53,900 bases of DNA from a virus, in IMG/VR virus record IMGVR_UViG_3300031841_001674, positions 1 through 53,900 of that record. One strand, written 5' to 3'. Shown here one piece after another: positions 653 to 34,567 of the stretch. The notes under the pieces are model-generated. The model worked only from the letters and a program-made list of their open reading frames with translations, was not told the DNA's origin and searched no databases. The stretch's first letter is position 1. The number at the start of each line of letters is the position of its first letter. Position numbers and translations under genes: made by a program.

Positions 653-898
653 TTAGAAATCGAAATGCTCAACGCGAGCATATTCAGGGTATTCAGCGGC
701 GAGTTCTTCGGCATGAACCGCATACTCAAAGAAGAAAGTATGCTGATAGTTGTCAGTCCATGTCTCGAAATGCCATGCTTTTTTAGGCAGGTGTTCTTTG
801 CACCATTCGCGACCTTCAAAGAATAGGTCAGAGTGCAGGTGGCAAGCAGTTCCTGGTCGCCACCTGAGTTTGTACTCAAAGATTTCTTGAGGTGTCAA
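653..898 (-). CDS. Small conserved-type hypothetical protein, 81 aa
   Basis: I do not recognise this protein. It is 81 residues, rich in aromatic residues and acidic at the C-terminus, with no membrane segment, signal peptide or Cys cluster. No ATG exists in the first part of the frame; the best start is the TTG at 898, which overlaps the stop codon of the upstream gene (TTGA junction) and has TTGGAG seven bases upstream. It is therefore translationally coupled to the 189-residue protein and transcribed from the same early promoter. Its stop codon begins the repeated promoter module that serves the next gene. A TTG start is less usual, so the exact N-terminus is uncertain. Confidence 0.65.
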   Translation of the reverse strand: MTPQEIFEYKLRWRPGTACHLHSDLFFEGREWCKEHLPKKAWHFETWTDNYQHTFFFEYAVHAEELAAEYPEYARVEHFDF

Positions 899-1464
899 AG
901 CATAGACTCCAATGAGTTGTGCTGCCAGTCAGAGATACGATCCCATTGAACTTCCCAGAGCATCTCCTGACCTTCTTCGTCAAACTCGCGTTCTTCAGGG
1001 TCAAAGTGCGCTCGAAGTTCTTCATCGTTCTCGAGGCACATGTCGATAAACTCATCGCTCTCAAGTTCTTCTTGATCTTCCAGACCGCCAGCATCAAAGA
1101 CTGCGCAACCAATAAAGTTACAGAACTCGTCTTCATATGTCAAGGCGAGGCGAACGCCAGCATCTACCACACCAATCTGTTCAGCAAGGTAAGCGCAGAA
1201 CTCGATACAGGGTGACCAAGCAGAATACATAGACAGACCATACTCATCATGATCTGTAAGGTATGCCCACTTCGCGCCAACGAGGTCGCACATATTCTCT
1301 CGATTCATATCGTCGTAGGAATCAAAGAAAACAAACCCAAGATGCTTCTCACCACCTTGAGTATCGTCTCGATCCAATCGACCAAGGATTTCGTTCCAAA
1401 CCTCACGACCCTTCTCATTCAACTCAGAACGGAGACTGAGGTATTGACTCACATGATTTGCCAT
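895..1464 (-). CDS. Acidic hypothetical protein with YubB/Api92-like segment
   Basis: A 189-residue, strongly acidic protein (the last third is a Glu/Asp-rich helix-like tail). The middle, around residues 60-120, has the order G-A-K-W, then S-A-W-S-P, then a basic-poor L-T-Y-E-D-E-F and a glycine turn. That order is reminiscent of the YubB ferredoxin-like family (Api92/DUF1281 proteins of phages and plasmids), whose function is unknown. The assignment is by eye and tentative. The ATG at 1464 follows GGAGG at good spacing. It is first in a two-gene early unit with the 81-residue gene behind the promoter at 1498-1526. Early, acidic, non-structural phage proteins are often host-interaction factors, but nothing in the sequence proves this. 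Confidence 0.7.
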   Translation of the reverse strand: MANHVSQYLSLRSELNEKGREVWNEILGRLDRDDTQGGEKHLGFVFFDSYDDMNRENMCDLVGAKWAYLTDHDEYGLSMYSAWSPCIEFCAYLAEQIGVVDAGVRLALTYEDEFCNFIGCAVFDAGGLEDQEELESDEFIDMCLENDEELRAHFDPEEREFDEEGQEMLWEVQWDRISDWQHNSLESML

Positions 1465-1555: not shown

Positions 1556-2365
1556 TTACGCAAAGAAATCTTCTAGTGAAACGGAACTAGACTTTTCGTA
1601 CTTGCCTCCACTCTTATCTCGTAGACGAAGTTCAGCGTGCCCAGTAGAACTACGAATGTACATAGAGCAAAGATCTGGAAACATCTCAGCAATCTTGGTG
1701 ATCGAATCATGCACATATTGCTCAGTCCTTATAGTTTGTAGTCCACCTTCCTCTTTGTAATAGTTGGACTTCACTGTGTATTTATCAAGGCGGCACAGTA
1801 CACCGTGTTTCACATACTGTCGCAGACTATACTCATAGTCCTCGCCATGATTAGTTACACGATCAAGGTATTCATCATGATCACAAATGACGCCAAACAT
1901 AGAAGCAATGATATAACAAAGTTTAGAGTAGACTCGATCCTTCATAAAGTATGCGTTCGCAGCTGCGTAGATACCAAAAGTTTTAGCACCGAGTTCCTCA
2001 CAGTTTTTAAACCCCTGTTCAATAATCTCAGTGTAGAGATCATCAATGGGTTCTAGAGTTTTCTCATCCTTCCTACGTTGTACCTGTTCAATGTCGTCAT
2101 CAAACATCATCAGGTAAGTGCCCTCTGGGTAATACTTCTCAATCCAGTTACGTTGAGCACCGATAGTCGGGACACCAACTACAATGTTGCCTCCATACTT
2201 GTGTCCAGCAAGTGCCTCTTTGTATACTGCTTCCTCTTCTTCATTCGCAACGAAAACAGTAACACGTTCAGGTGGGATGTTATGTTCCTCAAATACCTTG
2301 AACGTCTTATCTTGAATAGTCTTAGATCGTTGGTAGGAAGGGCAGGCGATTTGATAATCAATCAT
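1556..2365 (-). CDS. TET-associated-type GT-A glycosyltransferase (TAGT)
   Basis: A 269-residue GT-A-fold glycosyltransferase. The N-terminus (residues 4-15) has the I-A-C-P-S-Y-x-R nucleotide-sugar entry motif, residues 36-43 a V-F-V-A-N-E-E-E turn, residues 69-73 G-A-Q-R-N, and residues 88-91 the F-D-D-D metal-binding motif. This pattern fits the phage glycosyltransferase family found beside TET/JBP dioxygenases (TAGT), whose characterised members add sugars to 5-hydroxymethylcytosine in DNA. The gene overlaps the cytidylyltransferase by 8 bases and shares an operon with a TET/JBP enzyme, so base glycosylation is the likely role. The protein ends in SLEDFFA, nearly the same as the last residues of the TET enzyme. 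Sugar donor and acceptor are not readable. A generic surface-glycan transferase is the main alternative. Confidence 0.82.
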   Translation of the reverse strand: MIDYQIACPSYQRSKTIQDKTFKVFEEHNIPPERVTVFVANEEEEAVYKEALAGHKYGGNIVVGVPTIGAQRNWIEKYYPEGTYLMMFDDDIEQVQRRKDEKTLEPIDDLYTEIIEQGFKNCEELGAKTFGIYAAANAYFMKDRVYSKLCYIIASMFGVICDHDEYLDRVTNHGEDYEYSLRQYVKHGVLCRLDKYTVKSNYYKEEGGLQTIRTEQYVHDSITKIAEMFPDLCSMYIRSSTGHAELRLRDKSGGKYEKSSSVSLEDFFA

Positions 2366-2765
2366 TACAAACTCTCTTTCTTAAATCACTAGAACTAAAT
2401 CGGTGGTCTCTTTTGTTAAAGTATAGATCGATGTCACGTTTGCGACAAATATCTTTACCAGTAAAATCTTTATCCCGATACTCTTCGCCGAGGATACGCA
2501 CGTTGATATGATACATCGCTAGGATATCTTCTAGGTCTGCCTCAGTAGAGTATGGGATAATCTCATCAACGTAGCGAACTGCTTTGAGTTGAGTGTATCT
2601 CTCGACGACAGTTTGAATAGGTTGATTTTTGTTAGGACGGTCAAGAGTCGGGTCTACCTGTAGTCCACAAATCAAATAATCACATTGGTCTTTGGCATCA
2701 CGAAGCATTTGTACATGTCCAGCATGCAGCAAATCAAAAGCACTACAAGTAAACCCAACTCTCAT
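2358..2765 (-). CDS. TagD-like cytidylyltransferase (glycerol-3-phosphate type)
   Basis: A compact 135-residue nucleotidyltransferase of the TagD/GCT family, about the usual length of those enzymes (near 130). Residues 14-17 are HAGH, the HxGH CTP-binding signature, and residues 122-132 contain R-F-S-S-S-D-L-R-K-R, the ISSTxxR-type phosphate-binding motif. Family members condense CTP with glycerol-3-phosphate (or a similar phosphorylated small molecule) to a CDP-activated donor. The start ATG overlaps the TET stop codon (ATGA), and the gene runs 8 bases into the glycosyltransferase. Between a base oxidase and a base transferase, it may supply an activated group for DNA modification. That is inference; a role in envelope glycan or host lipid metabolism is possible. 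Confidence 0.85.
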   Translation of the reverse strand: MRVGFTCSAFDLLHAGHVQMLRDAKDQCDYLICGLQVDPTLDRPNKNQPIQTVVERYTQLKAVRYVDEIIPYSTEADLEDILAMYHINVRILGEEYRDKDFTGKDICRKRDIDLYFNKRDHRFSSSDLRKRVCND

Positions 2766-4186
2766 CCGAAAAACTCCTCAAGCGAACCTGCTTGTTGGAA
2801 AGCATTAGGATGATATTCCATCAACATGGACTTACCACCCTTCTTTTCAAGGTATTCATACCACTCAGTCTCATCCCACATGCCAGGGGAGACACCATTC
2901 CAATACTCGCGCCATAACTTATGCTCTTTGTTAAGTCGGCGGTCATCAACGTATTGTTTACGATACGACTCATACTCCCAAGAACCCAACTTATCCATAT
3001 CCTCGCGGAAGTAATATACCAGAGACATACGCATCAAGTCATCTTCACCTGAGTCGGGTGCTTCGATAGGAGTGTTGCCATGGATCACTCGCATGTTATC
3101 AACGAGTAGCAGGTCTCCTGGTCGAACGTTGATAGCAACGCGAACCTCTGGACAAACAAGATAACCACCCTTCCAGTTTCGCTTACCGTCACTGATCACA
3201 GTCAGGTTTGAGAATCCTGGGACGAGCGAACCTTGGTCACGGTGGCATGCCATACGTGCATTACGATCCTTGGTGGTTGTGTTCACTGTAATCGTAGTGA
3301 AGGTTGTATCCTCGCCGATCAAGAAACGGTTGTCCAATCTATCAGCAAATGCTTTCTGCTTGCTGTATCGTTCAGGAAGCAACTCGGCGAAAGTCTTGTC
3401 GAGTTTACGAGCGAACGGATATGACTTCTCAAACTTCTCACGGTTGTGGTCAACGTATGAAGTCGCCCGACCATATGGGATACGTGGGTATCGACCATAG
3501 AAACCTGCGATACCTGACCAGATAGCAGTCGCATAAGAAGTATCGGAGATCATGGTATCACGAACACGCTGAGCATATATTGATGCTGCATGAATATCTG
3601 GAGAATAACCAAGACCCTTGGTCAACTCAGAAAGTCGCACCATTAGTTTCGGAAAGAACCCATCATACTCGCCGAACTCTTTCTCAATAGCAGTCGTCAA
3701 CCAAACTTCGCCTCTCGCCTGCTCATCGTTGCTGCTTTTAGCAATCTCTTCCAACGGATCAGATCCGTCGATGCTTGGCGGTTGCCCTTTGATGTACCAA
3801 TCGAGGACTCTACTTTGAAACGCAGTGACCCACTCGCGACCATATGACTTGCCTTCCCTCGGACCTGCTGCTAGACCACGATTGTTCGACTCAACTGCTG
3901 CGCCATACAACCCTTCAAGAGCACCGTCCTGTTCTTCCTGAGTAAACACACCCTTGCGGAACTTAAACGCAATACGATCCTCGTTTAGAGTATCACCTGT
4001 CAACGAGTTACTCGGAAGATAAAAATCTGTATCTCTATCAATCAAGATGTCATAGTGTTCCTCGTCAACAAACTGACCAAGGACTTTGTCTTCAGACTCT
4101 ATGAAGTTAGCAATGTATACATCTTGACCTTCGTCACCAGTGAACCAGTCCCAAGTGTAGTTTCCGTGTTTGATTTTTTCGTTCAT
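2762..4186 (-). CDS. Phage TET/JBP-family 5-methylpyrimidine dioxygenase
   Basis: A 474-residue Fe(II)/2-oxoglutarate dioxygenase. The catalytic core (about residues 235-395) shows the TET/JBP layout. It has a G-R-A-T-S-Y lead-in, T-T-I-T-V-N before the iron site, H315-R-D317 as the HxD pair, then K-G-G-Y-L-V and V-R-P-G-D-L-L. The distal iron ligand H369 follows in I-H-G-N-T, and R386 is the expected 2-oxoglutarate-binding Arg. All catalytic positions are present. The family oxidises the methyl of 5-methylcytosine or thymine in DNA. About 230 N-terminal residues precede the core and are not recognised. It is first in an overlapping operon with a cytidylyltransferase and a TET-associated glycosyltransferase. 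The tail is SLEEFFG, like the glycosyltransferase tail. No cytosine methyltransferase lies in this window. The ATG at 4186 has AGGA four bases upstream. Confidence 0.88.
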   Translation of the reverse strand: MNEKIKHGNYTWDWFTGDEGQDVYIANFIESEDKVLGQFVDEEHYDILIDRDTDFYLPSNSLTGDTLNEDRIAFKFRKGVFTQEEQDGALEGLYGAAVESNNRGLAAGPREGKSYGREWVTAFQSRVLDWYIKGQPPSIDGSDPLEEIAKSSNDEQARGEVWLTTAIEKEFGEYDGFFPKLMVRLSELTKGLGYSPDIHAASIYAQRVRDTMISDTSYATAIWSGIAGFYGRYPRIPYGRATSYVDHNREKFEKSYPFARKLDKTFAELLPERYSKQKAFADRLDNRFLIGEDTTFTTITVNTTTKDRNARMACHRDQGSLVPGFSNLTVISDGKRNWKGGYLVCPEVRVAINVRPGDLLLVDNMRVIHGNTPIEAPDSGEDDLMRMSLVYYFREDMDKLGSWEYESYRKQYVDDRRLNKEHKLWREYWNGVSPGMWDETEWYEYLEKKGGKSMLMEYHPNAFQQAGSLEEFFG

Positions 4187-4193
4187 AGTTCCT

Positions 4194-4222
4194 ATTCTAC
4201 TAAATCACAAATCAAAAGTCAA
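4194..4222 (-). promoter_or_regulatory. Strong sigma70-type early promoter of the TET operon
   Basis: Minus-strand -35 TTGACT (4222-4217), 17-base spacer, -10 TAGAAT (4199-4194): five of six consensus matches in each box. The -10 ends only seven bases before the TET start codon, so a normal start site would fall at or next to the A of ATG, giving a leaderless or nearly leaderless message. The -35 overlaps the 3' end of the preceding 56-residue gene. A 10-base inverted repeat (CAAAAGTCAA near 4213-4222 with its complement near 4249-4258) brackets the region and could be an operator or a weak terminator. Confidence 0.65.
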
Positions 4223-4375
4223 TACCTGAGAATCAACCATTGTAAACTTTTGACTTTTGGTTCGTATCTCTAATCCGTTGTATTTATGTTTGATCCCGTT
4301 TTCAGTCATTTCCTTAGATAAAGAGGCGAGGTCATTGTACTTCATTGATTTCTTCTTGGGAATATATTTCTTCAT
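4205..4375 (-). CDS. Small basic hypothetical protein, 56 aa
   Basis: A 56-codon frame from ATG 4375 to TGA 4205 fills the gap between the oxygenase gene and the TET operon. The start codon overlaps the oxygenase stop codon in an ATGA junction, typical of coupled genes in this genome. The N-terminus is very basic (K-K-Y-I-P-K-K-K-S-M-K) and the rest is polar with no recognisable domain. I cannot assign a function. Its 3' end contains the -35 box of the TET promoter. Evidence for it is the tight junction, the full use of the space and the absence of another explanation; it could still be a chance frame. Confidence 0.55.
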   Translation of the reverse strand: MKKYIPKKKSMKYNDLASLSKEMTENGIKHKYNGLEIRTKSQKFTMVDSQVLTFDL

Positions 4376-4887
4376 TTATTATGTTTCTTTGCACCTTTAA
4401 GGTACTCATTACCACAATCAGAATGCGGTCCATTGGCATCAACGTAATGTAAGAAGGATTGGTAAACCATACCATCTGGATTAGAATCTCTCCAGTGCAT
4501 CAATGGGCGGTGGTATACTACTGCGTCACCTTGTTCCATAGCATATGAACCACCATCCCAATGAAACTCCCAAGGAGATTTTTCATTGCGAAGGCAAACA
4601 GTGACACTGACTTGACAAGCAGGACGATCGCTGTGCTTCTCTAAGGTTTCTCCTACGGAATATATTCTACAATAGTCGTAAGTTGGAATGAGTTCTAATC
4701 CAGTAATAGATTCCATCTTCTCGAGAGAATCTTCTAGTAAGTCCCAGTTTGCACCATAGATTGCCCAAGAGTTTCTACATTGACCGTCATCAAACTGCAT
4801 ATTTTCTTTCATGCTTTCCATTCTATCTGCGTATTGATTCGCAGTGTCAATGTCCAAGAACCCTTTTACGACTTGCGCGAGTTTCAT
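4372..4887 (-). CDS. 2-oxoglutarate/Fe(II) oxygenase, prolyl-hydroxylase type
   Basis: A 171-residue enzyme with the HxD...H signature: H85 and D87 in L-E-K-H-S-D-R, followed by strands, a G-D-A-V-V-Y turn and distal H131 in L-M-H-W. This is the double-stranded beta-helix core seen in small phage 2OG oxygenases related to prolyl 4-hydroxylases, which hydroxylate protein side chains; a few act on nucleic acids. It is unrelated in detail to the TET enzyme two genes away. It overlaps gp46 upstream by 4 bases and the 56-residue gene downstream by 4 bases, so it belongs to the gp55-gp47-gp46 transcript. Substrate unknown. Confidence 0.82.
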   Translation of the reverse strand: MKLAQVVKGFLDIDTANQYADRMESMKENMQFDDGQCRNSWAIYGANWDLLEDSLEKMESITGLELIPTYDYCRIYSVGETLEKHSDRPACQVSVTVCLRNEKSPWEFHWDGGSYAMEQGDAVVYHRPLMHWRDSNPDGMVYQSFLHYVDANGPHSDCGNEYLKGAKKHNK

Positions 4888-6602
4888 GCTGCTATCTTCG
4901 AGAAGTTTTTATCTTTAACGAACTCAATCTTAGAGTCGAACTTACCCTCAAGCATTTCACCTTTGTGTGAAATGATAAACACATTGGTATCTTCGCCGAG
5001 AGTATGAATAATCTTCATTAGGTTTTCGATACCTGCTTCATCTAGCGATGAGTCGAACGTCTCATCAAGGATGAGAAGATTAGTACTGATACTGTTCTTC
5101 ATCTTAGCAACCTGTCGCCAAGTAAACAAGAGCGCCAAGTCGATACGTTGCTTCTCGCCCTCAGAGAAAGAGTCATAGGTAAACGAATCACGGTGGCGCG
5201 ATCGTATAGTTTCTTGGAAACTTTCGTTAAGGTCAAAGTGAACATAGAAGTCTAGGATAGACAGATACTGATTGACGAGCTTGTTGATAACAGGCAAGTA
5301 TTGTTTTACGATTTTAGTTTTGATGCCAGTATCCTTCAGCATCTCTGCTATCACACTGTTGTATGCTGCTGTATCATTTAGTTTATTTCTAGTGTCCATC
5401 AACTCATGGTATTCTTTTACTAGAACATCATAATCGTCGTTCGCCTTAGCAAGATCTGATTTATCATCGGACAAGTTTTCAATGTCGTACTCAGCAATCT
5501 GTATTTCCGAGTTACACTTGTTAATCAAATCTTGATGCGTTTGTATCTCGTTTCTCCATTCTTGATTCTGACTTGACCTAGACTCGCCTTCAGCAAGACG
5601 CTCGGTTACTTCTGCTGTTTCCTCTGTGATTTTAGCAAGAGATGATTGAAACTCTGTTGCTGTGACTTTTGCTTGCTCGATTTTCCCTCTTTTGAGTTGC
5701 TCGTCGATGTCTTGCTCACAGGTGGGGCAGGTCTGGTTGTTCTCATAGAATCGTGTTTCCTTGACTAATGCTTTGATTTTAGTTTTTATTTCAGTATTGG
5801 CAGATTGAAGATCGACCAAAGCAGATCTCGCTTGAGTGAGTTCTTCTTCTAATCCTATACTGTTCCCAGAGATTTTATCAGTCAGTTCTGTGATGCTATT
5901 AATATGTGATTCTTTCTCATCCTTGTATCGTTGGATGAGTTCTTCTTTTTCCTGTTTAGCATCATGATTGAGTTTAGAGATATCGCGAATGTATTTCTTT
6001 TGTGCTTCAGTTTTGGTTTCGTTAATCTCAATGTCATGGTATGCTTGATTAATCTTTTCTTTCAATGCTGAGTTTCGTTCTTTCAGCAACGCATTCATCT
6101 TAGAGAACACGCCGATATCAAGTAGATCTTCGATCACTTCCCTACGGTTGAACGCAGACAGTTGCATAAATGGAGTGAAGGAAGAAGAACCAAGTACCAC
6201 TACCTGATGAAATGTTTTATGGGTCAACTTCAGAATATTCTGCTCTAGGACTTTTTGATATTCTTTGTTGTGAGAGTTTTGATTGAGCAGAGTACCGTCA
6301 ACATATATCTCAAACTTCGCAGGTTTTAATCCACGAAACACCCTGTACTTTTTAGCACCGATAGTAAACTCCACCTCTACTTCACACTTCTTATCGTTGA
6401 CCGAGTTGACCAGTTGTGGTTTATTTATGTTTCTGTGCGCTTTGCCGAACAATGCGAACGAGATAGCATCGAGCATAGTTGATTTACCCGAACCGTTTTG
6501 TCCAACAACTAATGTGTGTTTGCTCGCATCTAAACTTATATCCGTCCAGTTGTTACCAGTGGACAAAAAGTTTTTGTATCTAACCGATGTGAAATATATC
6601 AT
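4884..6602 (-). CDS. 46: gp46 recombination endonuclease subunit (Rad50-like ATPase)
   Basis: A 572-residue SMC-type ATPase. Walker A GQNGSGKST is at residues 34-42, the ABC signature F-S-E-G-E-K-Q-R at 479-486, Walker B L-L-I-L-D-E-T at 509-515, and the switch histidine I-I-S-H-K at 543-547. Between them lie two coiled-coil arms around a CPTC zinc hook at 292-295. In T4, gp46 and gp47 resect double-strand ends for recombination-dependent replication and help degrade host DNA. Length is close to T4 gp46 (560). It is encoded directly after the glutaredoxin-like gene with an ATGA overlap, and gp47 is the gene before that. Confidence 0.97.
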   Translation of the reverse strand: MIYFTSVRYKNFLSTGNNWTDISLDASKHTLVVGQNGSGKSTMLDAISFALFGKAHRNINKPQLVNSVNDKKCEVEVEFTIGAKKYRVFRGLKPAKFEIYVDGTLLNQNSHNKEYQKVLEQNILKLTHKTFHQVVVLGSSSFTPFMQLSAFNRREVIEDLLDIGVFSKMNALLKERNSALKEKINQAYHDIEINETKTEAQKKYIRDISKLNHDAKQEKEELIQRYKDEKESHINSITELTDKISGNSIGLEEELTQARSALVDLQSANTEIKTKIKALVKETRFYENNQTCPTCEQDIDEQLKRGKIEQAKVTATEFQSSLAKITEETAEVTERLAEGESRSSQNQEWRNEIQTHQDLINKCNSEIQIAEYDIENLSDDKSDLAKANDDYDVLVKEYHELMDTRNKLNDTAAYNSVIAEMLKDTGIKTKIVKQYLPVINKLVNQYLSILDFYVHFDLNESFQETIRSRHRDSFTYDSFSEGEKQRIDLALLFTWRQVAKMKNSISTNLLILDETFDSSLDEAGIENLMKIIHTLGEDTNVFIISHKGEMLEGKFDSKIEFVKDKNFSKIAA

Positions 6603-6853
6603 AAGACAGGGAACCTTTCTATCAGATCATAGAACCCACCAATGAGTTCATCGTCAACCCAAACAATTGGTAAGGGTTTATCACTAACCCAATATTTTGC
6701 GACTTCTTCCGGAGGATTTTTTGCCATTCCAATATCAAACTTTAGAAACTTGTATTCTATTTCTAAAAGTCTACAGTGCATTTCGCAACGTTTTGACCAA
6801 GCACAAATATCCTCACCAAATGGGCCAGTCATGCCAACTATTACAACCATCAA
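6599..6853 (-). CDS. Glutaredoxin-like protein with CxxxC site
   Basis: An 84-residue thioredoxin-fold protein. The first strand is M-V-V-I-V-G, the active-site region is W-S-K-R-C-E-M-H-C (residues 20-28), the cis-proline strand is K-P-L-P-I-V-W-V, and the C-terminal half has I-G-G-F-Y-D-L, a clear glutaredoxin glutathione-site ending. The usual CPYC is replaced by C-E-M-H-C, with three residues between the cysteines. Phage glutaredoxins such as T4 NrdC reduce ribonucleotide reductase. Here the gene overlaps gp47 and gp46 by 4 bases on each side, an odd place for it, and the altered site makes its redox activity uncertain. Confidence 0.75.
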   Translation of the reverse strand: MMVVIVGMTGPFGEDICAWSKRCEMHCRLLEIEYKFLKFDIGMAKNPPEEVAKYWVSDKPLPIVWVDDELIGGFYDLIERFPVL

Positions 6854-7911
6854 GAGATTTCCATAGTTTGCGCTTCTACCATCAAGTCTGTCATTTCTTT
6901 CTTGATACGTTCTTTATCTAAGATAGTTTCAACGTTGTCAACATACTGTGATAGCAAAGTAGATGTATCTTCAACTTCAAGTCCTTCGTCGCTTACCGAC
7001 TCACCAGTAAACTCATTGAAGTCCTCTTGTATTTTAAGATCATAGATATCGCGTTGCTGAATCCTGTCGATGAATCTCTCGAAAGTAAACCCATCGGTCT
7101 TATTAATCACAACAACCTTCACGAACCTCTTGTCCAGTATGGACAAGTCCATCTCGTTGTAATCTTCCTTCTCATCATCATAGCGAATGCGATGGAAAAG
7201 TGTCAGCGGATTACGAACAGGAGTTAGTTCGCGAGTCTCAGTATCAAACACATGAAAGAACTTGTCATCATGTGCATCATTCCAAAAGAACTCCATCTGA
7301 GAACCAAGGTAATGAATGTTGCCTTGATTAGACTTACAGTGATAATGTCCAGAGAGTACCAACTCAAACCTGCGTAGATTATCAGTAGACATACCGTGAG
7401 TACAAGGCACGCCCCGAAGCATATCAAACCCATTCAACTCAAAGTGACCGCCTACAACATCTGCCTTACAGTTTACTAGAAACTCATTTATTTCTTCCTC
7501 ATTGTCTTGGCATATCCAAGGAACCAAAGCAAACTTCAACCCATCATAATCAAGGACAGTTGCTTGTTGTACAATGTTCACCTCGTTCATGTAATGACCG
7601 AGCAGTTCCTTCAATGAGTTGAGTTCGTTGGTATTCTTATAATAGGTGTCATGATTACCAGGAATGATGTCCATCGTAATCTTATCTTTACGCAACCTTT
7701 CAAGAAACACCTTACGATTACTGTTCAGTGCTTTGAAGTTAATGAACCTTCGGTGTTCGTAATAGTCACCAAGGTGCACGATATGTTTGATGTCGTTCTC
7801 TTCCAGATATGGAAAGAACACTTCGTTATAGAAGCGTTCTTGGTAATCTATAAAAATATCTGAAGAGTTCCTGATACCACAATGGGTATCGTTTAGTATG
7901 GCAAACTTCAA
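6850..7911 (-). CDS. 47: gp47 recombination endonuclease subunit (Mre11-like)
   Basis: A 353-residue calcineurin-type phosphoesterase, close in length to T4 gp47 (339). Metal-binding motifs appear in order: D8-x-H10, G-D49, G-N86-H87-D88, H156 in G-G-H-F, and H189-x-H191 in S-G-H-Y-H. This is the Mre11/SbcD nuclease layout. It pairs with gp46, encoded one gene downstream, to process DNA ends in recombination-dependent replication. It lies two bases after gp55, and its stop codon overlaps the glutaredoxin-like start. Confidence 0.97.
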   Translation of the reverse strand: MKFAILNDTHCGIRNSSDIFIDYQERFYNEVFFPYLEENDIKHIVHLGDYYEHRRFINFKALNSNRKVFLERLRKDKITMDIIPGNHDTYYKNTNELNSLKELLGHYMNEVNIVQQATVLDYDGLKFALVPWICQDNEEEINEFLVNCKADVVGGHFELNGFDMLRGVPCTHGMSTDNLRRFELVLSGHYHCKSNQGNIHYLGSQMEFFWNDAHDDKFFHVFDTETRELTPVRNPLTLFHRIRYDDEKEDYNEMDLSILDKRFVKVVVINKTDGFTFERFIDRIQQRDIYDLKIQEDFNEFTGESVSDEGLEVEDTSTLLSQYVDNVETILDKERIKKEMTDLMVEAQTMEIS

Positions 7912-7913
7912 AA

Positions 7914-8510
7914 CTATTCCTCTAGGAATTCTGTGAGGTCTGAGTCAACTTGATATGATTTTTTACGATTAGCGACCTTGGTCACTTTCTTATACTCATC
8001 AACTGCTTTGTCTTTTTCTTTCACGTCATCAATGCGGCGACGAAGATTATCAACAAAGGACTGCACTGCTTTTGCTACTTGCGGATCTTCGTCAGGGTCA
8101 ACCATAAACTCTTCGATGCCTGACTCAGCAAGGAACTTTAGTTTTACGTCTTGTTGTTTCTTTTCTTTCTTGATACGACGAATGAACGCAAACCAAGAGA
8201 TCTGAGTAAAGTATCCGAATGCGTTTGGTTTACCCTTTCTAGTTGCTGCTTCAATGTTGTAGTTCCCCACAGCATTCAAACAGTTTTCAACTGCGTCCAT
8301 CACCATTTCTTCACGATAGGTGTATCGGACAAAGTTTGATTTATGCGAAAGACCTTCAGCAATTTTTAGAAAGCAGCGAGCAATGTAATCGGTAACCATC
8401 GGATCGGGTTGATTCTTTTCCCTCGCCTCTCTAACGGTCTTTACATAATCTACGACTGCTTGTGAAAACTCTTTGTTATTCACATAATGTGGACGTTCGC
8501 TCGGTTTCAT
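7914..8510 (-). CDS. 55: gp55 sigma factor for late transcription
   Basis: A 198-residue protein matching T4 gp55 (185 residues) in order: Y-V-N-N-K-E-F near the N-terminus, an I-A-E-G-L-S-x-x-x-N-F central helix, an A-F-G-Y-F-T-Q-I-S-W-F-A-F region and the basic R-I-K-K-E-K-K helix that corresponds to sigma region 2. T4 gp55 directs host RNA polymerase to TATAAATA late promoters and touches the sliding clamp through its C-terminus; here the tail is D-L-T-E-F-L-E-E, a plausible clamp-binding peptide. The co-activator gp33 is not seen in this window. The gene has its own sigma70-type promoter and starts the gp47-gp46 unit. Confidence 0.95.
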   Translation of the reverse strand: MKPSERPHYVNNKEFSQAVVDYVKTVREAREKNQPDPMVTDYIARCFLKIAEGLSHKSNFVRYTYREEMVMDAVENCLNAVGNYNIEAATRKGKPNAFGYFTQISWFAFIRRIKKEKKQQDVKLKFLAESGIEEFMVDPDEDPQVAKAVQSFVDNLRRRIDDVKEKDKAVDEYKKVTKVANRKKSYQVDSDLTEFLEE

Positions 8511-8538
8511 AATAACTCCAAAAAATACAACAAATAAT

Positions 8539-8567
8539 ATTGTACTCTAAAATGATTGAAATGTCAA
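8539..8567 (-). promoter_or_regulatory. Sigma70-type early promoter of the gp55 operon
   Basis: Minus-strand -35 TTGACA (8567-8562, perfect consensus), 17-base spacer, -10 TACAAT (8544-8539, five of six). The leader to the gp55 ATG at 8510 contains TTTTTTGGAGTT, so the ribosome site is on the transcript. The -35 overlaps the stop codon of the 129-residue gene. It places the late sigma factor under host-type, early control. Confidence 0.72.
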
Positions 8568-8953
8568 TCTTTTGGTTTAAACGTGACTACATTGTTTTCG
8601 AGAGGAGTTTTGGGTACTGGTTCGCCGTTACCCAATGCCTCTTGAATAGTCTTACAAGAAGTTAGATACTGATCTATGAGAGAATCTGCTGGTGTGCAAA
8701 GGCAGACTACTGATATTGGGTTTACTGCGCAATGAGTTTCTAAGTTTTCAGTGTATGCAATAAACGGTTTCATCACATAATAGTTTCTTCCCTCAATAAC
8801 TTCAAGGTCGTCATAATCAAGATCATCCAGTTCGTTAACAGTTACCGCATAGTTCAACGTAAAAGAATTTTCATCTTGCTCAATCATTTGAGCAATGACG
8901 ACGTCCCCTGTATTGAGAAGGAATTGCCCGATAGAAGGTCTACTGATATTCAT
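8564..8953 (-). CDS. Conserved-type hypothetical protein, 129 aa
   Basis: The protein is mostly beta-strand-like with an acidic stretch (residues 40-55). It opens with a short strand-turn pattern (F-L-L-N-T-G-D-V-V-I-A) that is reminiscent of an Sm-like barrel, and ends in a helix with Y-L-T-S and a polar tail. I cannot assign a function. Proteins of this size and pattern occur beside uvsW and gp55 in other marine T4-like phages as far as I recall, but I cannot check. The start overlaps the UvsW stop codon by 4 bases, so it is made with the helicase. The gp55 promoter begins at its stop codon. Confidence 0.7.
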   Translation of the reverse strand: MNISRPSIGQFLLNTGDVVIAQMIEQDENSFTLNYAVTVNELDDLDYDDLEVIEGRNYYVMKPFIAYTENLETHCAVNPISVVCLCTPADSLIDQYLTSCKTIQEALGNGEPVPKTPLENNVVTFKPKD

Positions 8954-10413
8954 ATATGCACCTTGTGTAGTTCAAAGTCAAACTTCTCTCTATTGTAGAT
9001 CTTGATCCGCTCGCCTGAGTGATTCAAAGTGAAGTTCTTTTTCGACTGCCATTGTAAGTCGTCGCAGAGATCATAGAGTTTTGTGTCTTGACCATTGTCT
9101 GCTTTTCTAAGTCCTCTACCGATTGACTGTAGAACTTTGACTTGTGATTTAGATGGACTTGCAAAAATAATGTTATGGAGGTTCCTAATGTTAATACCAG
9201 TAGAAAAAGTGCCAAGACTTGCAACGATGATAGCATTTTTTGATCCCTCTACGATTCCCCGTATTGATTCTCTATCCGAAACGTCAGTACCGCCATGTAC
9301 ATAGAAAACACTGTCAAACTTTTCTTTTATTAACTTATGGAGCACTTCACCATGCTTCTCAACAAACTGAAAGAGAACTAGAGTGTTGCCTGTTTGAGTC
9401 AATGCGAGATTGCGTATCAAATTGTTTCTAGGTTCATATCCAACAAGGAAGTCCACTTCTTCCTGATAAGTTCTCCCTACATTCATTCTACGCAGTTCTT
9501 TCGGATAGTCAAGAACTAATACATCTATTTTTAGTTTAGCGAGAGTGCCCTGATCTTGTAGGTCGCGAGTGAAGGTCACTCTCTTGGTTGGTCCGAATAA
9601 TCCCTCAAGCACAAGTTTATTCACCTGAGTTCCGTCGAGCGTTCCTGTTGTACCAAACCTATAATCTGCCTCGAGGCATTTATTCATCAGGGTTGTTAAT
9701 GACTTCGCCTTAAATAAGTGACACTCGTCGCCAAACACACAACCGAACTGCTCGAACCATTCTTTGCCCAAGCGATAGACTGACTGCCAAGTTGTGATGA
9801 CTACCCTCTTGTCAGTCTTTTTATCTTTGCCTGAGTATATGATATGACATTCCTCAGGAGAGTCGAATCCATAGTCCTCAAAGTCCTTGTACATCTGCTC
9901 AACCAACGATGTTGTTGGCACGACTATTAGTACCGACTTCTCATGTTGATCAAGATACCAACGCATTAGGTTATAGATTATGAACGACTTACCAGAACCT
10001 GTCGGTGACAGCAAGAGGCAGCGTTTGCGTTCTATACCGTGTACGATAGCATCATACTGATAGTCGCGAGGAGCGAAAGGCATTCCCCACATTGCTTGAG
10101 AAGCAACTAACTTCTGATGATCCACCTTGTTAGTTGCATTGGGTAGACCGTAGGGACTGTCCTTCAACTGTATATGGTAGTGACGATCTGCTGCGAACCT
10201 ACAAAGTTTCGTATACAATCCAACGTTGAGTTCACAAGTCAGCGAGTTGAACAAACGAATCTTACCGTCCCACTGTCTGCGCCGCACAGCAGGCATAAAC
10301 TTAGCACCAGGAACGTTGAATGAAAAATACTCACTCAGCTCGTGCCGAACTCCTGGTTCGCAGAGAACTGCCATCATAGAATGGTTCTGCATTTGAAGAG
10401 TGAGTGTTGCCAC
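8950..10413 (-). CDS. uvsW: UvsW recombination helicase
   Basis: A 487-residue superfamily 2 helicase, the length of T4 UvsW (about 500). The N-terminal domain (1-110) is followed by an R-D-Y-Q Q-motif, Walker A S-P-T-G-S-G-K-S at 136-143, DECH box at 229-232, G-T-T-G-T-L motif III, and a C-terminal RecA-like domain with a Q-S-I-G-R-G-L-R-K motif VI. In T4 it unwinds R-loops, regresses forks and shuts off early origin replication late in infection. The start is a GTG at 10413 sharing a base with the previous stop codon (TAGTG); the next in-frame ATG, seven codons on, has no better ribosome site. Confidence 0.96.
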   Translation of the reverse strand: MATLTLQMQNHSMMAVLCEPGVRHELSEYFSFNVPGAKFMPAVRRRQWDGKIRLFNSLTCELNVGLYTKLCRFAADRHYHIQLKDSPYGLPNATNKVDHQKLVASQAMWGMPFAPRDYQYDAIVHGIERKRCLLLSPTGSGKSFIIYNLMRWYLDQHEKSVLIVVPTTSLVEQMYKDFEDYGFDSPEECHIIYSGKDKKTDKRVVITTWQSVYRLGKEWFEQFGCVFGDECHLFKAKSLTTLMNKCLEADYRFGTTGTLDGTQVNKLVLEGLFGPTKRVTFTRDLQDQGTLAKLKIDVLVLDYPKELRRMNVGRTYQEEVDFLVGYEPRNNLIRNLALTQTGNTLVLFQFVEKHGEVLHKLIKEKFDSVFYVHGGTDVSDRESIRGIVEGSKNAIIVASLGTFSTGINIRNLHNIIFASPSKSQVKVLQSIGRGLRKADNGQDTKLYDLCDDLQWQSKKNFTLNHSGERIKIYNREKFDFELHKVHI

Positions 10414-10592
10414 TAGATACCGTAGATGTCTTTTCTAAAATCTTCACTTTTACCAAACTGCGCTGCTGCTTCTTCTTTCGCTTTCGCTAGAACGATAGGC
10501 GAGTTTGGCTTACGTTTCGCTCGATAAGAACCATGCGAACTTAACTTTGCTCTCTTTCTAACTTTCAGACTGACTTTCATCGTCTTCGACAT
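10413..10592 (-). CDS. Small basic hypothetical protein, 59 aa
   Basis: A short, strongly basic protein (many Lys and Arg in the first 35 residues, then an Ala/Lys/Glu helix). No domain recognised. The frame opens at 10610, but the ATG at 10592 has GGAAG upstream and is preferred; an ATG at 10580 is a further option. It overlaps the end of the DUF2452 gene and its stop codon shares a base with the UvsW start, so it is translationally coupled between them. The basic character suits a nucleic-acid-binding or accessory protein of the UvsW/UvsY recombination set, which is inference only. Confidence 0.6.
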   Translation of the reverse strand: MSKTMKVSLKVRKRAKLSSHGSYRAKRKPNSPIVLAKAKEEAAAQFGKSEDFRKDIYGI

Positions 10593-10938
10593 ATCGCTTC
10601 CACACTCCATCTGTTGTCAATTTAAAACATGCTATAAAAAAATCAGGGCGAGTGTTACTCGTCCATTCTTCAGGGGCAATCATACTCATAACATCTTGCC
10701 CTTTATTATTGTACAGATAATACTTCTTCCCAATGATGGGAGTAACGCCGATAGCAGCATTCTCCACACGTGTAGTATCTTGTACCAGTTTCACAAGAGC
10801 ATCATACTCCTCTTGTAACTTTTCTATCCTGCCTTCTATATATTGGTTTCCCTTCAGTGGGTTGCCATGGTCAACGATAGCAGGAAAAGAAGGTGTCGTA
10901 CCATAAGCGAGCAGAGATTTTTTATCCCCCTGACTCAA
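10558..10938 (-). CDS. DUF2452 (C1orf50-like) protein
   Basis: A 126-residue protein that fits the DUF2452 family, otherwise known from human C1orf50 and other eukaryotic and phage proteins. The diagnostic part is residues 65-115: I-G-K-K-Y-Y-L-Y, then M-S-M-I-A-P-E-E-W, then F-F-I-A-C-F-K-L-T-x-D-G-x-W. The family has no established biochemical role. An N-terminal helix (I-E-K-L-Q-E-E-Y-D-A-L) is also typical. The gene overlaps uvsY by 17 bases. No ATG exists near the start; the frame opens with TTG at 10938 just after AAGG, so the exact N-terminus is uncertain. Confidence 0.8.
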   Translation of the reverse strand: MSQGDKKSLLAYGTTPSFPAIVDHGNPLKGNQYIEGRIEKLQEEYDALVKLVQDTTRVENAAIGVTPIIGKKYYLYNNKGQDVMSMIAPEEWTSNTRPDFFIACFKLTTDGVWKRYVEDDESQSES

Positions 10939-11362
10939 ACCTTCGTACCTCTATGATATTTCGAATGTGTTGATGACGCCACTTTATACCCTCTACCATT
11001 TCCTTCAACGCATCAACCATTGCTTTATAGTAAGCAATCTTTTGCTCGCTCTGCTGTATCTCTTTATCACTGTCATAATAATAACTGAGATCGCCTTTCA
11101 TAATCTTCAAACCATCGAAAGGATCATGTTCCCACCCAAGCGAGTTTATTTCTTCTTGAGACAGTTTTCCGTTATACCAAAGGAACTTATTCTTCAACAA
11201 CACTTGTTGATTCGATTCCGCTCTCTTCAATAGAAGTTTCGCTTGGGTCAAATAACCCAGATACTTTGCGTGTAGTTTTGGTGTGTCACGAGAACAATCA
11301 TCTAACTTATGGGATATCTCACAATCTTGCGACCATTGCGCAAGAATATCATCAAGATTCAT
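10922..11362 (-). CDS. uvsY: UvsY recombination mediator
   Basis: A 146-residue protein, near T4 UvsY (137). Recognisable features are an acidic helical N-terminus (M-N-L-D-D-I-L-A-Q-W), D-T-P-K-L-H-A-K-Y, a Leu/Lys helix, then D-P-F-D-G-L-K, a Y-Y-Y-D-S-D turn and a long C-terminal helix ending in K-W-R-H-Q-H-I. UvsY loads the UvsX recombinase on gp32-coated single-stranded DNA. UvsX itself is not in this window, but UvsW is two genes downstream, so this is the recombination cluster. The ATG at 11362 follows the tube-like gene by only three bases. Confidence 0.92.
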   Translation of the reverse strand: MNLDDILAQWSQDCEISHKLDDCSRDTPKLHAKYLGYLTQAKLLLKRAESNQQVLLKNKFLWYNGKLSQEEINSLGWEHDPFDGLKIMKGDLSYYYDSDKEIQQSEQKIAYYKAMVDALKEMVEGIKWRHQHIRNIIEVRRFESGG

Positions 11363-11365
11363 ACT

Positions 11366-11878
11366 TTACTCTATTTCAAAATAACTAAACCTGAAACTCG
11401 CTGGGAAACTGACATACTCAACTCCTTGGTTCTGCGCCTCAAACTGAATGTCGCCGATAGCAACTGGGATACAGTCTCTATACTTAAACAGTTTGTTTTT
11501 ATTGTTCGCGCTGTTGAGTGCAGTGATTACTATGTCAGCATATGTTGGTGTAGTGCTACTTGATCCACCAAAGTCATTTCTCTTGGCGATCTGTTCATTG
11601 TTAACCAACCTTAACATCCAATCATACAACTCAGTGTAGGAGTTTAAATCCTCATCTAACAACACGTTCATCGTCAGTTCGCCGTACTGCATTTGGTTTC
11701 CTGGCATAGGAACACCTGCTATACGTTGGTATGGTGTTTCAGCTGCTGGGTTTGATGCTCCAGGATGATTGATAGATTGTACGAAAAACTCAAGATTCGC
11801 ATAATTCTGACGATCAATGATGACCCGAAACCCAGTCGGTTGAAAAAGGTTGATGTTGGTTGTTAAATTGTTGGACAT
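11366..11878 (-). CDS. Tail-tube/baseplate-tube-like structural protein (gp19/gp54 type)
   Basis: A 170-residue, beta-rich protein. It starts with an N-L-F-Q-P-T-G-F strand, has F-F-V-Q-S-I-N-H-P-G and a P-Y-Q-R-I-A-G-V-P-M-P-G-N segment resembling the small tube-fold proteins (gp19 and the tube initiator gp54), and ends in strands S-F-R-F-S-Y-F. The frame could open at a GTG six bases earlier, but the ATG at 11878 has AGGGAAAG upstream and is chosen. A late-type box (CTAAATAG) stands 34 bases upstream, which fits a virion protein sitting at the head of the recombination genes. Identification as a tube initiator is by fold impression, not by a clear motif. Confidence 0.6.
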   Translation of the reverse strand: MSNNLTTNINLFQPTGFRVIIDRQNYANLEFFVQSINHPGASNPAAETPYQRIAGVPMPGNQMQYGELTMNVLLDEDLNSYTELYDWMLRLVNNEQIAKRNDFGGSSSTTPTYADIVITALNSANNKNKLFKYRDCIPVAIGDIQFEAQNQGVEYVSFPASFRFSYFEIE

Positions 11879-11911
11879 GTACACTTTCCCTATTGAAAGG
11901 TCTATTCTATA

Positions 11912-11919
11912 CTATTTAG
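11912..11919 (-). promoter_or_regulatory. Variant late promoter box CTAAATAG
   Basis: CTAAATAG on the minus strand, 34 bases upstream of the tube-like gene and after the terminator at 11941. The same variant stands before the 1,229-residue fibre gene (30461). It differs from TATAAATA at the first two positions and the last, so its use by gp55 polymerase is plausible but unproven. Confidence 0.4.
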
Positions 11920-11940
11920 GCATAAAAGTCAATAGGGTAT

Positions 11941-11964
11941 AAAAAATGCCCCAAAAGGGGCATT
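11941..11964 (-). terminator. Rho-independent terminator after the secreted-protein gene
   Basis: On the minus strand an 8-bp stem AATGCCCC / GGGGCATT with a TTTT loop is followed directly by T6. It lies 19 bases after the secreted-protein stop codon and before the CTAAATAG box, closing that one-gene unit. Confidence 0.85.
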
Positions 11965-11982
11965 CTCTCTCAAGATAAAAGT

Positions 11983-12378
11983 TTATCCTGCTGGACATAC
12001 TGATGCGTCGTCAGATGCATCAAACTTCTCGTCACCGCAACCATAAGTACGGTCGTTGTTCGTGTCACAAGCACGTTCCCATGCCTGATCAGCAAACGAG
12101 TAACCAAACTCATAGAGCACATGTGCTTTACACCACTCGTGCGAACCAACAGGGTTGGGGTTAGGAGTTGGTTCTGGGCGATCTACCTTCTCAGTTGGCC
12201 ACTGCTTTTTAAACTGCACTGACTTTGAGTATGGGTGATAAGACCAAAGGTTTGGTTGCTTAGAAACGAAAATGTATTCGTCGTCAGCAACAGTGTAGAC
12301 ATCACCGTTATCATAAGTGATGGTATGAGCGTGTGCCAAGATGGGCAGGCACAATAAGAAAAGAATAATATTTTTCAT
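11983..12378 (-). CDS. Small secreted protein with signal peptide
   Basis: The frame opens further upstream, but the ATG at 12378 is chosen because TTGGAG lies five bases before it and the product then starts with a classic signal peptide: M-K-N, an I-I-L-F-L-L-C-L-P-I-L hydrophobic core, and an A-H-A cleavage site after residue 17. The mature part is about 114 residues with a Pro-rich linker (P-E-P-T-P-N-P-N-P), a Trp/Cys region and an acidic D-T-N-N-D-R stretch that looks like a calcium-loop. Four Cys remain in the mature part, suggesting disulfides in the periplasm or outside. It is a one-gene unit behind gp23 with its own late-type box, structured leader and terminator, so it looks like a late moron. 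Function unknown. Confidence 0.75.
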   Translation of the reverse strand: MKNIILFLLCLPILAHAHTITYDNGDVYTVADDEYIFVSKQPNLWSYHPYSKSVQFKKQWPTEKVDRPEPTPNPNPVGSHEWCKAHVLYEFGYSFADQAWERACDTNNDRTYGCGDEKFDASDDASVCPAG

Positions 12379-33330: not shown

Positions 33331-34113
33331 TTATGGTTTGCCTTCAAAATGATCCCCAACCTGAATCGCTGTTATTTCAGATAGATTTCTAGTAGCAGTA
33401 TATGATTTATGATATAAAACTGTATTTTCTGGCATAGGCACTTCCCTATGCAACAAAGACCAATAGTTCCAACGATAGTTGTCTTCAAAAACACCAATCT
33501 TCAAGTCTTTATACTTCTCAACTTTTTCTGTTAACCACCAAAGAGTAAACTGATCCCAATGCCTTAAATGGTATGGGTAAGTTTCTTTATCATAGTTCCC
33601 CTCTTCATCGGTCGGCCACCAATGACCTGCTCTTTGCTGCACATAAATGTCATACCATTCTTGCATAAATTCCATGACTAGAGGGTTGCTGCTATCATAC
33701 AAACAAACGCCACCGCAAAGAGTAAACTTACCGCCAGGAAAATCTATGTCTCTAAAGATATGATAACACTCTTCTCTTAAGTCAGTGAATACCATATCAT
33801 TATCGCCGAGTTCATCAAACACCAAGGCGATGTCTTCATGCAAACATTCCATATCTGCGTCAATATAGAAAGTTTTATCGAATGGACTTTGAGCCATGCC
33901 CCAAAGTTTCGCTCTGTAGTTGTCGTCGCAGAAAATTATATGATCAGCAATCTTTTCCCGACCATCACAAAACCGTTCTTCGGTTACAAAGCAGACTTTT
34001 GCCTCGGGGTGATAGTCCTTTATCTGCTCTATAAGATTTAATGCCCAAGCATAGTAGACATCTTCTTTAGAGGCAACAATCAAGTATCCGTTATTTTGAC
34101 TCTGCTGCTTCAT
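33331..34113 (-). CDS. GT-A (GT8-like) glycosyltransferase
   Basis: A 260-residue enzyme with a Rossmann-type N-terminal half (Y-L-I-V-A-S, V-C-F-V-T), the metal-binding D85-A-D87 in F-Y-I-D-A-D-M-E-C, and G-G-V-C-L-Y and R-H-W-D-Q-F sites further on. This is a GT8-like retaining fold that moves a sugar from a nucleotide-sugar donor. It differs from the TET-associated enzyme at 1556. It sits between the two Tyr/Thr/Gly-repeat fibre genes, overlapping the 159-residue gene by 23 bases, so glycosylation of fibre repeats or host receptor glycan is the likely role (inference). Confidence 0.8.
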   Translation of the reverse strand: MKQQSQNNGYLIVASKEDVYYAWALNLIEQIKDYHPEAKVCFVTEERFCDGREKIADHIIFCDDNYRAKLWGMAQSPFDKTFYIDADMECLHEDIALVFDELGDNDMVFTDLREECYHIFRDIDFPGGKFTLCGGVCLYDSSNPLVMEFMQEWYDIYVQQRAGHWWPTDEEGNYDKETYPYHLRHWDQFTLWWLTEKVEKYKDLKIGVFEDNYRWNYWSLLHREVPMPENTVLYHKSYTATRNLSEITAIQVGDHFEGKP

Positions 34114-34567
34114 TAGTTACAAATCCAATACCAAGTTCTTCCATCATGATTAGTTGAGCGTACAAGTTGAGTTCTACAAGATTCTTAGAACGTCGCAGTT
34201 TGCTCTTTAAAGTTTTATTGGAAGTGTTTTTGATTTGATCGATTTCTAGGATTTTGATCTTGGCGTCAAACAGTTTTTCTAACTCTCTCGCCTGCTCTTC
34301 TGCCTTCTTCCTTTGCTCGTCGATTTCCTTTTCTTTGGATTTGCGTTCTTGACGTTCTTTGGTGTTCTCGTCAATTTTTTCCTCACCAATCTGTTCTAAC
34401 AATTCGGTGAAGTCGGGATTTAAATCCCCATTAATGTCAAACTTCCGGACAGTAACGACTTGAGAGATTTCTCTGTTATTTTCGTCAGTAATTAAAAGAA
34501 TGGCTTCTGCCATTTCTTTTTCTTCATTGTGCCAAAAGGCATTGTCCATCCACTTTCTGGTCGCCAT
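34091..34567 (-). CDS. Conserved-type coiled-coil protein, about 158 aa
   Basis: Starts M-A-T-R-K-W-M-D-N-A-F-W, then A-E-A-I-L-L-I-T-D-E-N-N and an N-P-D-F-T-E-L-L segment, followed by a long Glu/Lys/Arg coiled coil (residues 65-110) and a helical end. A small protein with this M-A-T-R-K opening accompanies tail-fibre genes in other marine T4-like phages as far as I recall. The second of two adjacent ATGs (34567) has AGGAG at six bases and is preferred. It could be a fibre-assembly chaperone, because of coiled coil and position; unproven. Confidence 0.65.
   Translation of the reverse strand: MATRKWMDNAFWHNEEKEMAEAILLITDENNREISQVVTVRKFDINGDLNPDFTELLEQIGEEKIDENTKERQERKSKEKEIDEQRKKAEEQARELEKLFDAKIKILEIDQIKNTSNKTLKSKLRRSKNLVELNLYAQLIMMEELGIGFVTNEAAESK

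Follow-up and report, generated by a model that had tools for sequence, protein, structure and literature searches.

Oxidation of a DNA base by a TET/JBP oxygenase followed by glycosyl transfer has been described in phages, in a system that couples a TET enzyme to a C5-cytosine methyltransferase and a glycosyltransferase and acts on 5-methylcytosine (5mC; Burke 2021, as summarized in the accessible part of PMC12730594), and in the base J pathway of kinetoplastids (JBP1/2 and JGT), where the hydroxylated base is thymine. Here, we analyzed a 53,900-nucleotide stretch of viral DNA (IMG/VR record IMGVR_UViG_3300031841_001674, positions 1 to 53,900; hereafter the window) in which positions 1,556 to 4,186 encode a TET/JBP oxygenase (TET), a nucleotidyltransferase and a TET-associated glycosyltransferase (TAGT). 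This three-gene cassette is very probably a DNA hypermodification system, as proposed in the initial annotation, a view now backed by the polymerase-like tails of TET and TAGT, a predicted fold shared with TET2, NgTET1 and CMD1, and membership in the TAGT family. We further favor, with more reserve, a replication-coupled version of this reading, in which TET would act on thymine and both TET and TAGT would be tethered to the sliding clamp.

With the phage 5mC system the cassette shares the succession of a TET/JBP oxygenase and a glycosyltransferase, but it differs by the lack of a detected C5-cytosine methyltransferase, by the exchange of its partners in relatives for an amino acid:DNA transferase (ADDT) and a P-loop kinase, and by its polymerase-like tails. 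With base J it shares hydroxylation within DNA by a TET/JBP-family enzyme, glycosyl transfer and, as we propose, thymine as the base, yet the present system belongs to a phage, features a TAGT-type transferase and possibly uses a donor made by the nucleotidyltransferase. Thymidine hypermodification in phages ViI, M6 and phiW-14 resembles it through the ADDT, P-loop kinase, GNAT and glutamine-amidotransferase-like genes of its relatives, whereas 13 of the 14 TET records with an ADDT (mostly fragments; Caulobacter phage Cr30 is the exception) lack a ThyA-family gene, and there TET would form the hydroxymethyl group in DNA. T-even glucosylation (T4 alpha-GT with gp45, T6 TAGT) is comparable by the TAGT family, by the neighborhood of genes 47 and 55 and by the co-purification of alpha-GT with the clamp (accessible text of PMC13216743); the present cassette differs in possessing a TET, in that a PF00303 search found no ThyA-type hydroxymethylase in its genome, and in a C-terminal tail absent from T4 alpha-GT.

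The cassette comprises the following features.
1556..2365, minus strand: TAGT, 269 amino acids (Pfam PF20691).
1559..1585, minus strand: SVSLEDFFA, C-terminal tail of TAGT, nine residues identical to the end of the DNA polymerase.
2358..2765, minus strand: nucleotidyltransferase of the TagD/RfaE-II superfamily, 135 amino acids (Pfam, NCBIfam).
2762..4186, minus strand: TET/JBP 2-oxoglutarate/Fe(II) DNA-base oxygenase, 474 amino acids (Pfam, PHROG, predicted fold).
2765..2788, minus strand: GSLEEFFG, C-terminal tail of TET, putative sliding-clamp-binding peptide (motif scan).
3029..3082, minus strand: codons H369 (iron ligand) to R386 (2-oxoglutarate ligand), both residues invariant.
3236..3244, minus strand: codons H315-R316-D317, HxD iron ligands, invariant in aligned TETs.

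The window corresponds, with 99.99% identity, to positions 85,035-138,934 of G001, a record of 151,660 bases, and the carrier of the cassette is a marine T4-like phage, its relatives forming a largely marine clade of T4-like phages. The three open reading frames (ORFs), all on the minus strand, overlap their neighbors by 4 and 8 nt. Their order is repeated in three loci (L001, L002 and L009) whose proteins are 100% identical, which are therefore near-copies of one virus; a near-identity search of a phage collection with 12 kb gave no match. Near full-length TET relatives were found among named phages in C48C1 (67% identity), Stenotrophomonas phage DLP6 (51%), Cr30 (39%) and Synechococcus phage S-CBWM1 (25%), and on environmental contigs at 62% to 100% identity in a first scan and down to 47% in a second, which covered the best 80 of at least 584 confirmed TET matches. 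ORFs were called in 100 loci and a TET was obtained in 99; that of phage Altadena, whose annotation names a Tet-like protein, was not recovered with the profile used here. Many TET records are fragmentary, near-copies occur among them, and absence counts given below apply to the sequence present.

TET and TAGT end like the DNA polymerase of their own phage. The strict tail motif [ST]L[DE].FF occurs three times among the 204 ORFs (48,798 amino acids) of G001, always at the C-terminus, namely in the DNA polymerase (family B, 839 amino acids, PF00136 1.6e-29, tail SVSLEDFFA), TAGT and TET. A related 153.9-kb record (G003) displays it twice, in polymerase and TET. In C48C1 the count is three, with an adenine methyltransferase of the D12 class in addition to polymerase and TET; this methyltransferase (record positions 33480-34364, tail STLDAFFG) is encoded immediately after the polymerase gene. 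Taken over G001, G003, C48C1, DLP6 and Cr30, the strict tail is carried by 8 of 1065 ORFs, against a mean of 0.002 in shuffles. In DLP6 the polymerase (an ORF recovered by tblastn) ends in ATLDSFFA and TET in ATLGDFFV, and in Cr30 the polymerase and TAGT have changed in parallel, to DLSSLFD and DLSKLF, respectively.

Among the representative loci and partner genes described below, the strict tail is found in 50 of 62 TET ORFs, 6 of 9 TAGTs, all five members of a second TAGT group and 4 of 18 GNATa proteins, and ORFs of about 447 amino acids beside TET end in ATLEDFFG, ATLDSFFG, ASLDSFFG or SSLESFF (5/5). The ADDTs carry no strict tail (0/30) and a relaxed GLExFF in 18 of 30. No strict tail was found in the nucleotidyltransferases (0/10 distinct ORFs), SDR proteins (0/8), mutases (0/4) or amidotransferases (0/27). 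The T4 polymerase has a similar end, SLDFLFG, and the T4 sigma factor gp55 carries SLDFLYE, peptides that bind the clamp gp45. T4 alpha-GT co-purifies with gp45, although this co-purification is not the main determinant of its share of glucosylation, according to the accessible text of PMC13216743. The likeness of the TET and TAGT tails to that of the polymerase suggests that the sliding clamp recruits both enzymes, which would then work on newly made DNA; as judged from these ends, TET and TAGT would stay at the fork with DNA as their substrate, and the nucleotidyltransferase would act on a small molecule. A gp26-like ORF, recognized by eye in G001 (147138-147869) and G003 (90022-90771), ends in GL[TS]DFF in both.

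The assignment of TET to the TET/JBP oxygenases, with the full set of iron and 2-oxoglutarate residues that the initial annotation had listed, rests on a Pfam Tet_JBP match (PF12851, 4.3e-15; 55.8 bits for a gathering score of 34.9), on a PHROG 24024 match (1.9e-140) spanning residues 27-467 of 474, and on the invariance of H315, D317, H369 and R386 across 18 and across 40 aligned TETs. The H369-R386 region is alignable to TET2 by profile (E 0.006). An AlphaFold2 model from a 40-row alignment of the window's protein and its relatives (predicted local distance difference test score, pLDDT, 82.9) displays a predicted TET-type double-stranded beta-helix fold, with TET2 (Z 19.8), NgTET1 (19.3) and CMD1 (19.1) as top matches, followed by CcTet (17.1) and, below, by the AlkB types, ALKBH3 (14.2) first among them. 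To our knowledge no structure of a JBP catalytic domain is available in the PDB, and the fold ranking therefore cannot favor 5mC over thymine. We considered S320 and R394, which we take to align with base-contact residues of TET2, as a signature of thymine versus 5mC, and abandoned it: position 320 (S or D) varies inside both types of cassette described below, R394 occupies all filled rows but one, and neither column separates them. Some TET homologues are annotated as 'SNF2 DNA repair protein' or, in a mycobacteriophage, as 'DpdA-like tRNA-guanine transglycosylase', labels that look wrong.

The product of the third gene likewise belongs to the TAGT family, as it passes the gathering score of PF20691 (1.2e-16; 61.8 bits for 27.5); its D89-D90-D91 motif is unchanged in seven aligned TAGTs. 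The accessible text of PMC13216743 reports a GT-A fold for T6 TAGT, which puts glucose on already glucosylated hydroxymethylcytosine in DNA, and terms potentially novel the solitary TAGTs that 288 of 753 genomes contain. The middle gene had been described as a CTP-using cytidylyltransferase of the TagD type, of which the superfamily stands (Pfam CTP_transf_like PF01467, 6.7e-14, 52.7 bits for a cut-off of 21; NCBIfam cyt_tran_rel TIGR00125, 50.1 bits for 27.7) and the use of CTP is not confirmed: the GCT/TagD equivalog TIGR01518 and the RfaE domain II model TIGR02199 (heptose-1-phosphate adenylyltransferase) tie at 63.8 and 64.0 bits, far below their cut-offs of 165.4 and 181.5. The C-terminal motif RFSSSDLR is unlike the RTxGISTT of GCT. 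The closest solved relatives, ethanolamine-phosphate and glycerol-3-phosphate cytidylyltransferases, use CTP, which makes it a possible substrate for what would be an enzyme supplying a nucleotide-activated donor.

Beside a constant oxidase, the partner genes are exchanged between loci. Representatives of the partner-gene clusters, one or a few per cluster, were identified with Pfam and fall into two sets. Partners that we call 'amino' are ADDT (PF18724, 3.7e-24), the P-loop kinase (PF18751, 7e-19), GATase_6 and GNAT proteins, together with a weak amidoligase match under cut-off; 'sugar' partners are TAGT, UDP-galactopyranose mutase (4e-52), an SDR epimerase, a GT1-type transferase and a family of about 340 residues. 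The 99 TET loci divide into 45 amino, 29 sugar, one with both (Cr30) and 24 with neither (Fisher test 2e-9, relatedness ignored), and the 64 representatives at 95% TET identity into 30, 19, 1 and 14, respectively (1.6e-6, relatedness again ignored); in 19 of the 24 neither-type loci, at least one flank of TET is shorter than 3 kb. A quick tree of 61 TETs implies at least ten changes between amino and sugar, and TETs of opposite type can be as close as 94.0% (L108, sugar, and L109, amino) or 89.1% identity (C48C1, sugar, and L067, amino). Because opposite-type TETs are nearly identical and the active-site columns do not split the two types, a single oxidase product would serve both sugar and amino tags.

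Several loci deserve mention for their unusual partners. Five of them (L027, L072, L079, L080 and L088) have an ORF of 447-450 amino acids beside TET that falls outside the 'sugar' label; in L027 it is GT1-type by Pfam. The next ORF in all five has 455-477 amino acids and in L027 looks DUF262/HNH- or ParB-like by eye. Cr30 encodes ADDT, TAGT and a myo-inositol-1-phosphate synthase side by side (record positions 51788-57655); a kinase-like ORF belonging to the PNK3 cluster lies nearby. The family of about 340 residues (cluster c24) occurs in nine of the 99 loci (L003-L007, L041, L094, L110 and L111), always with the mutase or the epimerase; its representative has no Pfam match and is perhaps an unrecognized glycosyltransferase. 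A MobA-like NTP transferase and an APH-type kinase (weak) form one fused gene directly upstream of the DLP6 TET (8235-9926) and are split in S-CBWM1 (6058-7921), where they follow TAGT and are accompanied by a gene annotated as capsule phosphatase; this pair suggests another activated donor.

The exchange with ADDT/kinase cassettes, which the initial annotation did not include, points to thymine as the base. ADDT is present in 14 of 37 TET records and PF18751 in 13, 12 of them over cut-off. A ThyA-family gene (PF00303) accompanies ADDT in all six phages chosen outside the clade, none of which is among the TET matches, and was detected in one of the 37 TET records. ThyX, found in 5 of 14 records, would supply ordinary deoxythymidine monophosphate. 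In G003, where ADDT, the kinase and ThyX are present and neither ThyA nor a C5-cytosine methyltransferase was found, TET is, by gene content, the only candidate found for hydroxymethyl formation. In phages M6, ViI and phiW-14, 5-hydroxymethyldeoxyuridine (5hmdU) is thought to be incorporated during replication and then phosphorylated by a 5hmdU DNA kinase (accessible part of PMC6449724), and in phiW-14 it is made by a phage synthase (likewise from part of PMC5977210). As ADDT chemistry is known on 5-hydroxymethyluracil (5hmU), thymine is the likeliest base; by transfer from the relatives, we consider it the probable substrate of the window's TET, with a base-J-like product. Among the titles listed in literature searches of partial coverage, none pointed to a thymine-oxidizing phage TET, and parts of this proposal may have been predicted earlier.

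The same cassette could instead start from 5mC, made by the host or by an undetected C5-cytosine methyltransferase, with TAGT glycosylating the resulting 5-hydroxymethylcytosine. This alternative, which the initial annotation had implied, has the phage 5mC system as a precedent, 5mC oxygenases as the nearest solved structures, and the glucosylated hydroxymethylcytosine substrate of T6 TAGT (PMC13216743, accessible text) in its favor, as well as a gene annotated as DNA methyltransferase two genes after TET in the distant TET phage P12024L. The structural ranking cannot separate the two bases for the reason given above, and near-identical TETs feed ADDT/kinase cassettes whose chemistry was described on 5hmU. 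A C5-cytosine methyltransferase (PF00145) was found in none of the 37 TET records, many of them fragments and four of them complete named phages, and in none of 50 further records (from 60 loci), a search that detects the gene in phage S-B43 (1/6). It was also missing from all four of the more distant TET phages, so that this absence is not specific to the clade, a point that tells against thymine. On balance we regard 5mC as an unlikely starting base. Still less probable, in our view, is that TET acts on N6-methyladenine or another methyl mark, to reset epigenetic marks or attack host DNA, beside unrelated transferases: G001 encodes two D12 adenine methyltransferases, neither with the tail, C48C1 encodes the tailed one, and structures of CcTet with N6-methyladenine DNA exist, whereas the adjoining glycosyl and ADDT cassettes require a stable hydroxymethyl group and their adjacency and exchange are systematic.

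Other alternatives detach the transferases from TET rather than change the base. The glycosyltransferase and nucleotidyltransferase could remodel the host surface (lipopolysaccharide, capsule or teichoic-acid-like glycans), TET being a mere neighbor. TagD-like homologues occur in 134 phage records, and among the 50 matches listed only the two Cr30 records belong to the nine records with a TET match; the S-B43 homologue sits in a sugar cluster, and UDP-galactopyranose mutase is present in 88 phage records. The nine residues that TAGT shares with the end of the polymerase, the action of T6 TAGT on DNA (same source as above) and the mutual substitution of sugar and ADDT cassettes beside TET make this explanation highly improbable. 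A milder possibility, compatible with the reading that we prefer, is that the nucleotidyltransferase is a stand-alone metabolic gene of the ADP-heptose or CDP-glycerol type and that TAGT uses a host UDP-sugar. Besides the abundance of homologues in phages, this view gains from the six whole genomes, where the gene is present only in G001 and Cr30, in the latter far from TET (153.2 kb versus 59-61 kb of the record), and is lacking in the sugar-type C48C1 and S-CBWM1, and from three TAGT loci (L074, L095 and L112) that show none in the stretch examined. On the other side, the gene tends to accompany the glycosyl branch, as had been guessed, being found in 14 of 29 sugar loci and 5 of 24 neither-type loci against none of 45 amino loci (sugar versus amino, Fisher test 1.7e-7; representatives 8/19 versus 0/30, 1.7e-4), and in the window it overlaps the ORFs of both DNA enzymes. 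We hold this last explanation to be a real, if minority, prospect.

Several observations weigh against a replication-coupled system acting on thymine. Neither ADDT nor PF18751 gave a match in G000 or G001, the window's own genome, and the thymine argument consequently runs through relatives; Cr30, in addition, does have a ThyA. No ORF in the sets of DLP6 (a set lacking its polymerase, which has the strict tail), Cr30 or S-CBWM1 carries the strict tail; the Cr30 TET ends in ATLF only and that of S-CBWM1 is tail-less. The P-loop kinase lacks the strict tail (0/26) although it is expected to act on DNA, so that a tail rule for DNA-acting enzymes is not strict, and T4 alpha-GT is likewise devoid of such a tail, although gp45 co-purifies with it. 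A direct clamp match (PF02916) was not found in G001; its clamp homologue (80530-81249) was recognized by 48% identity to a G003 candidate that itself falls below the PF02916 cut-off. The structure model of TAGT is of low quality (pLDDT 57.8) and gave no fold match at E <= 0.001. Tree-based contrasts between nucleotidyltransferase and amino cassettes yield three to four informative pairs, none opposed, with a median p of 0.25, which is not significant. Completeness is unproven for G001 and the other contigs.

In the scenario that we propose, the phage DNA would be copied with ordinary bases, and TET, held at the fork by its polymerase-like clamp-binding tail, would hydroxylate the 5-methyl group of a pyrimidine in new DNA, most likely that of thymine itself, giving 5hmU. 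The nucleotidyltransferase would provide a nucleotide-activated small molecule, such as a CDP- or ADP-linked compound of the glycerol, pentitol or heptose type, and TAGT, tethered to the clamp too, would move a sugar-type group onto the hydroxymethyl; the modified DNA would presumably escape restriction. In sister phages, the same TET would work with the swapped-in kinase, ADDT, GNAT and glutamine-amidotransferase-like cassette to attach an amino acid or amine. Chances appear about even that the clade as a whole makes base-J-like or other hypermodified thymines in this way, with a clamp-riding TET and an exchangeable sugar or amino-acid decoration module, and such partner swapping may help the phages evade host defenses. 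If true, phages would own a JBP-type thymine oxidation, a point relevant to how base J arose, and some phages would form their 5hmU in DNA and not in the nucleotide pool. A clamp-like tail would also mark DNA-acting versus small-molecule enzymes within such cassettes, the kinase being an exception, and a constant TET with exchangeable tagging modules would constitute a natural combinatorial system predicting testable new DNA bases.

The cassette is surrounded in the window by the following features.
895..1464, minus strand: 189-amino-acid ORF after the cassette, with a weak SLESML tail (ten family ORFs in TET loci, three identical).
4372..4887, minus strand: second 2-oxoglutarate/Fe(II)-oxygenase-like ORF, 171 amino acids, of uncertain membership (PHROG 2954, labelled ferrochelatase, 1.3e-33).
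4884..8510, minus strand: homologues of gp46 (SbcC), gp47 (SbcD) and sigma gp55, with an 84-amino-acid ORF (PHROGs).

The homologues of gp46, gp47 and sigma gp55 adjoin the cassette, in keeping with the clustering with recombination genes noticed initially, and the T4 annotation places alpha-gt in the matching neighborhood, between genes 47 and 55. An early promoter of its own had also been attributed to the cassette; this claim loses its footing, as the 12 promoter-like sites between positions 500 and 5200 are at chance level (8.0 +/- 3.1 in shuffles), the top-scoring one (4222-4194) ending 7 nt upstream of the TET ATG. Elsewhere in the window, between 15800 and 50279, eight TATAAATA sites were found for 2.07 expected, a number reached in none of 100 shuffles; seven lie on the minus strand, they have a T4-type late-promoter look and none is close to the TET cassette.

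The second oxygenase-like ORF, in which HxD and H were recognized by eye only, is present in 18 of the 99 TET loci (eight sugar, four amino and six neither). An APOBEC-like identity of the 189-amino-acid ORF was rejected, since its matches are weak and under cut-off and the Cys and HxE residues are not conserved in homologues; another G001 ORF with APOBEC-like matches is primarily a dCMP-type deaminase. Carbamoylation of a hydroxymethyl group has a precedent in MetaGPA (accessible part of PMC8670742), and a NodU-type carbamoyltransferase of G001 was considered for this role and set aside, as it is tail-less and belongs to a glycan-like run of genes some 75 kb away from TET. That run (G001 2300-12235, some ORFs scanned) contains GT25-type, weak GT8-type, epimerase and carbamoyltransferase genes and is likely a capsule or surface-glycan cluster. 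G001 also encodes, at 77965-79407, a member of the tryptophan-halogenase family (2.4e-83).

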